A stretch of DNA of 64,000 bases from Actinoalloteichus fjordicus (lineage in GTDB: Bacteria; Actinomycetota; Actinomycetes; Mycobacteriales; Pseudonocardiaceae): positions 2,480,001 to 2,544,000 of the forward strand of contig NZ_CP016076.1 in NCBI RefSeq assembly GCF_001941625.1, read 5' to 3'. Of the stretch, positions 18,401 to 21,587 are shown piece by piece; positions within the stretch are counted from its first letter, which is position 1, and every line of letters starts with the position of its first letter. The notes beneath the pieces were generated by a model, which worked only from the letters and a program-made list of their open reading frames with translations, was not told where the DNA came from and searched no databases. A program made the position numbers and the translations under genes.

Positions 18401-18831
18401 GATTCCGACGGTGCCTCAGGGGCAGGACGATGTCTGTGATTCACGAGGGAAACCACCCGGTCGATGGGCGCGCCGCACCGCAGATCCACACCCTGGGAGT
18501 GGCGTCACTCCGTCGGACGGTGATCGGTTCGCCCTGCACACGGCTCGGAGTGGCGCCGGAGCGGAGGACCCCGCGCGACCTGCATGGGCCCGCGTGTGAC
18601 ACAGTGGTGGGCAGGAGGCCGGTCCAGGCCTCGGATTCGCGGCGTGAGCCGACGGTCGAGGCGGATCAGGCGGAGTCGACGGCGGACCGACCTCATCACA
18701 CCACGCAGCTGTAGACGGTGTCATGCCGTGCGTGCCCGGCTCCTCGGGTGCCCTCGGCCCACGGGCCGTGTTCGGCGATCGGCGTGGTGTAGAATTCGTC
18801 GGCGAAGTGTACGAAAGGTGAGGGGTCGTAG

Positions 18832-19263
18832 GTGCCACCCAAGCAGCGCAAGACGTTCGAGGCGACACTCGAACTTGAGGCTGGCAATGCAGCCATGGTC
18901 GATCTCGGAAAGATGCTCGGCCCGACGGGTGTCAACACCCGGAACGTCAAGCTCGAGTACGACGAGAACACCTCCGCTCACCGAGGCGAGATCGTTCCCG
19001 TGGTGGTCTCGGTCTTCGAGGACCGGACCTACAAGCTCCGGTACAAGACTCCGCCCACGAGCTTCCTGATCCGTCAGGCCATGGGTGCGAAGTCCGGCTC
19101 CGAGCGCCCCGGTCACGTTCCCGGCGGCACCATCTCCAAGGAGCAGGTGCAGGCGATCGCCGAGCGCAAGATGCCCGACCTGAACGCGGGCGGCGACCTG
19201 GAGGCCGCGATGAAGATCGTGGCGGGCTCCGCGCGTTCCATGGGCGTCACCGTCCAGGCCTGA
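18832..19263 (+). CDS. rplK: Divergent stand-alone ribosomal protein L11 paralogue
   Basis: A 143-residue protein with full-length L11 architecture. The C-terminal RNA-binding domain is well conserved (LIRQAMGAKSGS, MPDLNAGGDLEAAMKIVAGSARSMGVTV). The N-terminal domain diverges: the usual proline-rich loop (NPxPPVGPALGQHG) is replaced by AAMVDLGKMLGPTG at residues 20-33 and has lost every proline of that loop. In the family these prolines contact 23S rRNA helices 43/44 and thiopeptide antibiotics. The usual neighbours nusG, secE and rplA are absent. The start is GTG at 18832 with GAGGGG 6 bases upstream, and a strong terminator follows, so it is monocistronic. It is likely a second L11 for special conditions or antibiotic resistance, not the housekeeping copy. 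Confidence 0.88.
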   Translation: MPPKQRKTFEATLELEAGNAAMVDLGKMLGPTGVNTRNVKLEYDENTSAHRGEIVPVVVSVFEDRTYKLRYKTPPTSFLIRQAMGAKSGSERPGHVPGGTISKEQVQAIAERKMPDLNAGGDLEAAMKIVAGSARSMGVTVQA

Positions 19264-19296: not shown

Positions 19297-19327
19297 AAGG
19301 GGGCCACCCGAATCGGGTGGCCCCTTT
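19297..19327 (+). terminator. Intrinsic terminator of the L11 gene
   Basis: GGGGCCACCCG pairs with CGGGTGGCCCC around an AAT loop and ends in TTT (19325-19327). It lies 34 bases after the stop codon. The remaining bases to 19595 hold nothing recognised. Confidence 0.9.
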
Positions 19328-19595: not shown

Positions 19596-21218
19596 TCAGA
19601 CACCGCCCGCGAGGCTCTCCAGCTTCACGTCGGGATGGCGGCGGAGCAGCAGCCGCAGCGTGATGTCATCGGTGAACAGAGCAAGTTCCGCACCGTCGCC
19701 CCTGGTCAGAACCTCGCTGCTGGTGCCGTCGACCAGCTTGCGCTCGGCAGGGTCGCCCAGCCTGCGGACCACCGTGTAAGGCAGGTGATTCAGCAGGATC
19801 GTCACGCCGAACTCGTTCTGCAGCCGGTCGGTCGCGACCTCGAACTGCATGGGACCCACCGCCGCGAGCACCGGGGTCGCCTCGCCGCGCCGATCCGAAC
19901 GCAGGACCTGCACGACGCCCTCCTGCTCCAGCTGCTCGACGCCGCGCCGGAATTGCTTGGCCCGGCTGGGGTCCTTGGCCGAGGCGGTGGCGAAGTGGCG
20001 GGGCGCGAAGCTGGGCAGTCCGGGGAAGGTGACCTTCGGCCGCCCGGAGTACAGCGTGTCGCCTACTCGCAGGTTCGACGCGTTGACCAGGCCGATCACG
20101 TCGCCGGGATAGGCGACGTCCAGCGTGCTGCGCTGTTGCCCGAACACCTGCTGCGCGTACTTGGTGGCGAAGGGCCGTCCGCTGGCGGCGTGGGTGACGA
20201 CCATGCCTCGGTCGAAGCGGCCGGAGCAGACTCGGGCGAAGGCCACCTGATCGCGGTGCGCCCGGTCCATGCCGGTCTGCACCTTGAAGACGAACGCCGA
20301 GAACGGCGCCTCCAGCGGCCGCGCGCCGCCGTCGACGTCCGGGCGAGGGGTGGGGCGGGGCGCCAACTCGACCAGCAGGTCCAGCAGGTGCTTGACGCCG
20401 AAGTTGAGCACGGCGGAGCCGAAGAGCACCGGGGTGGCCCGCGCCTGGAGGAACTCCTCGTAGTCCAGGTCGGCCCCCGAGATGGACAGCAGCTCGGACT
20501 CCTCGCCCGCCTGGGCCCAGTCCTCCCCGACGGCCTCGGCCGCCTCGGCGGCCGACATCCGCTGGACGCCCGCCCGACCGGCACCCGCCGCGTTGCGCGT
20601 GAAGCCGATGAAGCCGCCCTCGGTGCGGTCCAGGACGCCGTGGAAGCGGCCCGCCTCGCCGACCGGCCAGGTCAACGGCATCGGGCGCAGGGAGATGCGC
20701 TCGGAGATCTCGTCACACAGCTCCAGCGCGCCCCGGCCGGGACGGTCCCACTTGTTGACGAAGGTGATCACCGGGATGTTCCGGTGGCGGCAGACGTCGA
20801 AGAGCTTGAGGGTCTGTGGCTCCAGGCCCTTGGCCGCGTCGAGCAGCATCACGGCGCAGTCGACCGCGGCGAGCACCCGGTAGGTGTCCTCGGAGAAGTC
20901 GGAGTGGCCCGGCGTGTCCAGGAGGTTGATCACCGAGTCGCCGTAGGCGAACTGGAGTGCGGCCGAGGTGATCGAGATGCCTCGGGCCTTCTCCATCTCC
21001 AGCCAGTCCGAGACGACGCCCTTGCGGCCCGCCTTGCCGTGCACCGCGCCCGCCTCCGAGATGACCTGCGCGTGCAGCGCGAGCGCCTCGGTGAGGGTGG
21101 ACTTTCCGGCGTCGGGGTGGCTGATCACCGCGAAGGTTCTCCGGCGGGCGGCCTCTCGTCTCACCAGCGACTCGTCGTTCTTCGTCTGTCGCCCGAGGGC
21201 CGGATCGTTGCCCGCCAC
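19596..21218 (-). CDS. prfC: Peptide chain release factor 3
   Basis: A 540-residue translational GTPase. Its motifs are the P-loop SHPDAGKST, switch region and DTPGHSDF (G3), NKWDRP (G4), and the RF3-specific C-terminal domains (RPFATKYAQQVFGQQR, ANASNLRVGDTLYSG-like section, QFEVATDRLQNEFGV). RF3 releases RF1/RF2 from the ribosome after peptide hydrolysis. I chose GTG at 21218 because AGGGAG lies 7 bases upstream and the length (540) is close to the family norm of about 530; a longer frame to 21287 adds an Arg-rich stretch without a ribosome site. It is not part of an obvious operon. Confidence 0.95.
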   Translation of the reverse strand: MAGNDPALGRQTKNDESLVRREAARRRTFAVISHPDAGKSTLTEALALHAQVISEAGAVHGKAGRKGVVSDWLEMEKARGISITSAALQFAYGDSVINLLDTPGHSDFSEDTYRVLAAVDCAVMLLDAAKGLEPQTLKLFDVCRHRNIPVITFVNKWDRPGRGALELCDEISERISLRPMPLTWPVGEAGRFHGVLDRTEGGFIGFTRNAAGAGRAGVQRMSAAEAAEAVGEDWAQAGEESELLSISGADLDYEEFLQARATPVLFGSAVLNFGVKHLLDLLVELAPRPTPRPDVDGGARPLEAPFSAFVFKVQTGMDRAHRDQVAFARVCSGRFDRGMVVTHAASGRPFATKYAQQVFGQQRSTLDVAYPGDVIGLVNASNLRVGDTLYSGRPKVTFPGLPSFAPRHFATASAKDPSRAKQFRRGVEQLEQEGVVQVLRSDRRGEATPVLAAVGPMQFEVATDRLQNEFGVTILLNHLPYTVVRRLGDPAERKLVDGTSSEVLTRGDGAELALFTDDITLRLLLRRHPDVKLESLAGGV

Positions 21219-21587
21219 TGTCCGCTCCCTGTCTTGTGCCGTCGGTGCGTGCGGCCGCCGTCGGATGCGCGCCGCGCGCCGAGTCACTCTACCGGCCCGT
21301 CACCTTCCGGCCCGACCCGCCGCAGGTCAGCGCCCTGCCGTGCAGGTCGTCCGCCTGCGCGGGCCGCGAGTCGTACCGGGACGGCGTAGGGGCCGACCGC
21401 CGGACACGGCACGACTGCTTCGGCCGAGGGTCGGTGCCCACGGCGCAGGCGCCCTGGTGCGCACGGGGACGGTGTCACGGGAGTGACGAGGTTTGCTCGA
21501 CGCATTGCTTCTGGTCGAAGTCACGGTTAACGTAGGTTTTACGGTCAATTGATGGATCTAGAGGAAAAAATCCTGGAGGGAGTCGGC
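21219..21587. promoter_or_regulatory. Divergent region upstream of lat
   Basis: About 370 bases between prfC and lat. The last 80 bases (from about 21500) are noticeably AT-rich (GGTTAACGTAGGTTTTACGG) for this genome and probably carry the lat promoter. An Lrp-type regulator often controls lat, but none is encoded nearby and no clear dyad is visible. Confidence 0.4.

Follow-up and report, generated by a model that had tools for sequence, protein, structure and literature searches.

The window analyzed here, a stretch of 64,000 nucleotides from Actinoalloteichus fjordicus (genome G000), carries at 18832..19263 (+) a divergent uL11 coding sequence of 143 aa, with a GTG start and a TGA stop, which is the sole L11 gene found in the genome. 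The Ribosomal_L11_N domain (Pfam PF03946; residues 12-67, 18865..19032, +) scores 46 bits against a cut-off of 32.9, and the L11 RNA-binding domain (PF00298; residues 72-141, 19045..19254, +), which has its full length and one additional residue, scores 92.9 bits against 21.4. The NCBIfam equivalog for bacterial L11 (TIGR01632) is not reached (119 bits, where 141.85 are needed), so we regard the protein as a divergent member of the uL11 family. It is 96 and 95% identical to its counterparts in the genus mates G001 and G002, with dN/dS values of 0.13-0.33 (NG86), which together exclude a chance open reading frame, and 41% identical to rplK of a relative, G003.

Where canonical L11 has its proline loop, alignment and an AlphaFold2 model place the codons for AAMVDLGKMLGPTG (residues 20-33, 18889..18930, +). 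In the alignment to rplK of G003, canonical ANPAPPVGPALGQHG lies opposite A-AMVDLGKMLGPTG; all four canonical loop prolines (4/4) are lost, one residue is deleted, and a single new proline appears at residue 31. The loop ANPAPPVGPALG of a relative likewise corresponds to A-AMVDLGKMLG in the window protein. The AlphaFold2 model (mean pLDDT 77.4, pTM 0.52) has the uL11 fold (best match 8fmw_AK, VIA-align Z 14.3, rmsd 3.4, 133 aligned), and residues 22-32, the former proline loop, are helical in the prediction.

An earlier note gave the gene a promoter-like region and a terminator of its own. A consensus scan at the gene matched neither, but candidate signals are shared by both genus mates, as read by eye from the G000/G001/G002 alignment. 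These are a -10-like box, TAGAAT, without a full sigma-70 consensus match (18790..18795, +), a ribosome-binding-site-like AAAGGTGAGG (18814..18823, +), and, past the stop, a terminator-like 10-bp GC-rich hairpin with a short T run (19300..19324, +), which shows a compensatory change in G001. The leader and first 66 codons (18785-19030) have nearly no synonymous change within the genus and a GC3 below that of the rest: 1/64 codons in the front part versus 14/67 in the rest between G000 and G001 (p = 5e-4), and 0/64 versus 7/67 between G000 and G002 (p = 0.013). Copies from the Actinoplanes group and Amycolatopsis show a weaker trend in the same direction. Either an RNA element with a regulatory role or a tract of recombination may lie behind this pattern.

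Searches of the whole 7.12 Mb, one-contig G000 genome with PF03946 and PF00298 returned one place each, the window gene, and the two genus mates hold one L11 apiece. The gene is not a paralogue, as it is the only L11 found. The canonical rplK is missing from its operon: rplA lies 1.88 Mb from the window gene, directly after nusG, with no rplK between, and rplK is likewise absent from this position in G001, G002, and Actinoalloteichus caeruleus (G025). In these four genomes the nusG-rplA spacer is 94-133 bp long and holds a GTGGGAGGGC-(palindrome)-GCCC-CACCACNACTGATCC element. A close form of this element, with few mismatches, occurs in two genomes that have rplK (G003 and G011), where it lies between rplK and rplA and not between nusG and rplK. 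On the simplest reading of this position, excision removed rplK and left the rplA leader in place, and the stand-alone gene took over. The earlier note was right about a real gene with a replaced proline loop and an intact RNA-binding domain outside the nusG-rplA operon, and wrong in calling it a paralogue; a genome with no other L11 gene, which the note itself had named as refuting its reading, is what the searches showed. As these searches revealed no other L11, we infer that the divergent protein is incorporated into ribosomes, and on this gene content all G000 ribosomes must carry it.

The palindromic element retained before rplA despite the loss of rplK (L037:1291-1410, L036, L038, L033) resembles an L1-binding operator. 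An Rfam search of the operon leaders L037, L036, and L033 and of the L11 gene gave no match. A candidate rplK remnant in the G000 spacer, a CTCAAGACCCCGCCG stretch that reads LKTPP, is not conserved in G001 or G002 and was taken as chance.

A profile built from 14 divergent L11s was run on 390 Pseudonocardiaceae genomes. Among the matches listed, which extend down to about 154 bits, there are two score classes (>=196 bits versus <=167 bits). By hand count, 109/390 genomes hold a divergent-class L11, 97 of them together with another L11 and 12 as the only form: G000, G001, and G002, A. caeruleus (G025), Actinoalloteichus spitiensis (G060), Actinokineospora fastidiosa (G067), three Allokutzneria (G134-G136), Herbihabitans (G010), and two Sciscionella (G404, G405). 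In draft genomes the absence of an L11 may be an assembly gap; G000, G001, G002, G025, and G134 are single-contig assemblies. Seven of the 390 genomes, one of them 59% complete, gave no L11 match at all, and G012, G163, G197, G227, G307, G334, and G348 have an extra match beyond those listed, their best match being canonical-class or weaker. Within the genus code of Actinokineospora, G067 has the replacement, and each of 15 other genomes shows one score only, of the canonical class. For named genomes, a scan took the best 80 of 370 hits, and 49 of those 80 genomes were searched for L11s; the divergent gene is the sole L11 in 8 Pseudonocardiaceae (all within the 12) and in 25/25 Actinoplanes-group genomes, and a canonical-class L11 stands alongside it in 16, all 49 having been picked for holding the divergent gene, so that the count is no proof that every Actinoplanes relative has it. 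The loop is altered in 82/82 divergent genes listed; one proline survives in the accessory type (A-P-V-V-D), and there is hardly any variation in the replacement type, AAMVDLGKMLGPTG.

A tree was built from 46 divergent and 31 canonical L11s; the divergent gene L116, to which no start was assigned, was left out of it and of the alignments. A branch (100/100) separates all the divergent sequences from the canonical ones. The window gene clusters with those of G001 and G002 and then with Herbihabitans and Allokutzneria (96/89), and the A. fastidiosa L11 groups with those of A. caeruleus and A. spitiensis (88/79). The neighbors of the gene vary from genus to genus. Taken together, the tree, the differing neighbors, and the 1-versus-15 pattern in Actinokineospora fit horizontal movement with repeated displacement, and the divergent L11 is probably a horizontally spread form that displaced the canonical rplK.

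In the window's genus the gene adjoins prfC, which encodes RF3 (window 19599-21287, -). In six Actinoplanes-group loci it lies near typA/bipA (e.g., L071:5057-6985, -), a translational GTPase gene other than prfC. Another gene near that of the L11 (12817-15441, -) encodes a long array of TPRs and has weak, below-cut-off matches to AAA/STAND ATPases. In the Amycolatopsis locus L117 (7367-10213), the accessory divergent L11 overlaps a small gene that matches ABATE weakly, short of the cut-off, and stands between genes for a hexapeptide-repeat protein and a serine hydroxymethyltransferase; the arrangement is found again in part in other Amycolatopsis, in Prauserella, and in G022 and G011.

Thiopeptide precursors were searched for in the 390 genomes with TIGR03892, which gave hits in 23 at E 0.01 or better, 14 of them over cut-off. 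The peptides of 12 returned loci were read, and six show an SCT[T/S]C-type core, which from known thiopeptides we take to indicate an L11-site thiopeptide, by a rule applied after the peptides were seen. These cores are SCTTCICTCSCSS in G002, SCTTCECCCSCSS in A. spitiensis (G060), SCTTCECSCSCSS in A. fastidiosa (G067), SCTTCICTCSCSS again in G182 and G204, and SCTSCECCCSTS in G069. Seven hits are strong (E < 1e-8); among them is that of G062, which we left out of the L11-site producers on account of its different core (ACTSSSSTSTCSS...) and which lacks Tsr and has an L11 of the canonical class. Seven more genomes exceed the TIGR03892 cut-off with lower scores, of which G352, G012, G110, G148, and G127 have other cores and G114 and G290 were left unread. 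Strong precursor hits are commoner in divergent-only genomes (3/12 versus 4/378, p = 7e-4); at E 0.01 no precursor was found in 9 of the 12 divergent-only Pseudonocardiaceae genomes. TIGR03892 detected none in G000, so that self-immunity is unlikely as a present role there.

The clusters of G002, G060, and G067 contain thiopeptide pyridine synthase-like genes, below the model cut-off, and those of G002 and G060 contain a SagD-family gene over cut-off. In G002 the L11 gene lies outside the thiopeptide cluster (2.38 versus 3.54 Mb). A PerS4 homologue of A. fastidiosa JCM 3276, the strain from which the divergent L11 L063 comes, is reported to rhamnosylate nosiheptide (PMC11406533). A literature search combining A. 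fastidiosa with nocathiacin found no paper. TIGR03891 was dropped as a thiopeptide marker, as 25/36 genomes match it, and the first A. fastidiosa region inspected was set aside as an apparent LanB/LanC pair, judged by eye.

The resistance methylase family Tsr (PF04705) was absent from a search of 40 genomes that included G002, A. spitiensis, and A. fastidiosa. Whether the canonical-L11 producers G182, G204, and G069 have Tsr was a question posed before the search was extended to the 390 genomes. There, Tsr exceeds the cut-off in 5/390 genomes (G182, G204, G069, G194, and G031), each of which has one L11, of the canonical class, and in 0/12 divergent-only genomes; weak below-cut-off matches in fourteen genomes, none divergent-only, were not counted. 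The six L11-site genomes thus split into three that are divergent-only and lack Tsr (G002, G060, G067) and three with canonical L11 and Tsr (G182, G204, G069), and no genome combines the two. For six genomes drawn at random, the chance that all would be among the 17 showing one state or the other is 2.6e-9 (8e-8 when they are counted as five lineages), with kinship ignored, and the chance that three canonical-L11 producers would all have Tsr is 1e-6; the bare producer contrast of 3/0 versus 0/3 gives p = 0.1. Two further loci, L185 (G194) and L187 (G031), combine Tsr with a canonical L11 and have no detected thiopeptide precursor.

We consider that the sole L11, the operon without rplK, the single clade, the changed loop, and the Tsr split are best explained, with a rough probability of 0.72, by drug-target replacement: the divergent protein would confer thiopeptide insensitivity and would have become fixed as the only housekeeping uL11 in place of a deleted rplK, serving as self-immunity in producers and as standing resistance in A. 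fjordicus. The binding site of thiostrepton-type drugs lies between the N-terminal domain of L11 and helices 43/44 of 23S rRNA. A review reports that the thiazoles of thiostrepton stack on L11 prolines, that resistance arises from changes there or at A1067 or A1095, and that the thiostrepton producer has a methylated A1067 (PMC5960728). In the proposed mechanism, the divergent L11 would have displaced canonical rplK, with its deletion from the nusG-rplA operon, and the RNA-binding domain of the divergent protein would still seat it on the GTPase-associated center of 23S rRNA. Its N-terminal domain, lacking the proline surface for thiazole stacking, would let thiostrepton-type drugs bind the ribosome only poorly. 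In thiopeptide-encoding relatives this would provide self-immunity and substitute for rRNA methylation by Tsr; in G000, where no precursor gene was detected, it would amount to standing, inherited resistance to the thiopeptides of neighbors. We infer both the reduced drug binding and selection by thiopeptides. The suggestion in the earlier note of a thiopeptide-insensitive L11 is strengthened by the lost loop prolines and the exact 3/3 Tsr split, while its ideas of a second L11 and of special ribosomes fail for this genome. Altered rRNA was rejected as an explanation in G000, as all three 23S copies found (3/3) retain A1067 and A1095, positions that we take from the usual numbering.

Several points count against this reading. 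The absence of a detected precursor from G000, the position of the G002 L11 gene outside the thiopeptide cluster, the p of 0.1 for the bare producer contrast, and the core rule, chosen after the peptides were read, by which G062 was dropped all weigh on this side. According to a review, L11 mutations in one study did not keep thiostrepton from binding, which rRNA mutations diminished (PMC3917276). A thiostrepton-resistance screening vector for actinomycetes was introduced into Actinoplanes teichomyceticus L-27 (PMC3897980). Such use hints that this strain is sensitive to thiostrepton, in passages that give neither a dose nor its natural sensitivity, and may speak against insensitivity of the Actinoplanes group; the parts available of the literature on Actinoplanes and thiostrepton yielded no susceptibility data. 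A self-resistance screen lists rplK among the "resistance indicator" genes of organisms that make protein synthesis inhibitors and, in the part available, marks it "-" for Actinoplanes friuliensis, which we also count against the reading, as we do the 97 genomes with a divergent L11 beside another (PMC9290621 for the screen). Literature searches for L11 with Actinoalloteichus or with Pseudonocardiaceae found no paper. With somewhat better than even odds, we would extend the reading to a horizontally moving, drug-insensitive L11 that displaced the housekeeping gene on two or more occasions in Pseudonocardiaceae and on one in the Actinoplanes group, making whole genera natively refractory to thiopeptides, so that producers there would need no rRNA methylase.

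Among the alternatives, a takeover by drift, in which a divergent paralogue assumed the L11 task through chance loss of rplK and the loop has no role against drugs, seems improbable to us. It would sit well with the changing gene neighborhoods and with the nine of twelve divergent-only genomes that have no detected precursor, but it does not account for a loop that is altered in every divergent gene listed and nearly constant in the replacement type, for the enrichment of strong precursor hits in divergent-only genomes, or for the presence of Tsr in all three canonical-L11 producers of L11-site thiopeptides and otherwise in two genomes only. Less probable again is that the loop tunes the factors of the GTPase center (EF-G, RF3, BipA, Rel), for example, by weakening ribosome-dependent (p)ppGpp synthesis, with resistance as a side effect. 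The L11 N-terminal domain is a site of factor contact, and the gene lies beside prfC here and near typA/bipA in Actinoplanes-group loci, yet these GTPase genes run on the opposite strand and vary with the genus, and tuning does not predict the Tsr split. A second L11 for special ribosomes beside the canonical one, as the earlier note had it, is refuted for G000, where the window gene is the sole L11 and neither genus mate has another, even though a divergent L11 accompanies another L11 match in the 97 family genomes; the accessory copies of Amycolatopsis and others may serve in this way.

Drug-target replacement by an altered L11 has a precedent in TclQ, encoded in micrococcin clusters, which is reported to replace L11 and give self-resistance (PMC6804068), with a P-to-T change (PMC12724294); Bacillus cereus is reported to keep its native rplK elsewhere (PMC10704990). 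Like TclQ/TclT of micrococcin P1/thiocillin systems in Bacillota, the window protein appears to be an altered L11 that stands in for a drug-sensitive one, and a loop-proline change is common to both, being VGP to VGT in both of the genes read from the tclQ position (pBac115 and a Staphylococcus hominis plasmid). However, TclQ keeps PAPPVG and has a threonine at the next proline, whereas the window L11 has lost 4/4 of the canonical loop prolines; TclQ is encoded within a biosynthetic cluster beside a retained rplK, whereas the window gene stands as sole L11 in a genome with no precursor found. TclQ also falls outside the divergent clade, with 18 divergent rows on one side of a branch (100/99), a placement that carries a long-branch warning. 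By this comparison, the window L11 probably works like TclQ yet belongs to a separate, more altered lineage and is not a member of the TclQ group. With canonical uL11 it shares the two-domain fold and the status of the cell's sole uL11; canonical rplK has the proline loop and lies in the nusG-rplA operon, and the window gene lacks both and scores below the equivalog cut-off. Tsr/NshR, which methylates the 2'-O of A1067 in 23S rRNA, resembles it in drug class, ribosomal site, and inferred role in producers, but modifies the rRNA, whereas the window L11 replaces the protein.

As described in the passages available from three reports, resistance by L11 exchange has so far meant an extra gene in thiopeptide clusters of Bacillota (PMC6804068, PMC10704990, PMC12724294). 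Here, the exchange appears to be permanent in whole genera, with the original gene deleted. We predict intrinsic thiopeptide insensitivity for Actinoalloteichus, Allokutzneria, Sciscionella, Herbihabitans, and the Actinoplanes group, which would explain three species that encode L11-site thiopeptides without Tsr. These organisms may also offer a natural system for the roles of the conserved L11 prolines beyond drug binding, such as in the action of EF-G or Rel. A candidate rule for genome mining is that an L11-site thiopeptide cluster is accompanied by Tsr or else by a proline-less L11.

The 23S site was checked in 15 genomes, three of which (A. spitiensis G060, A. fastidiosa G067, and G003) gave no match. 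A whole-slice 23S comparison at 61% identity was taken as a misalignment and set aside. In Herbihabitans (L149; G010:C23:2160-2202), the single 23S copy recovered carries G at the position that we number A1067, and A in place of U1097, within otherwise conserved surroundings, and as read from this copy, it is a putative second natural change at the thiopeptide site beside a proline-less L11.
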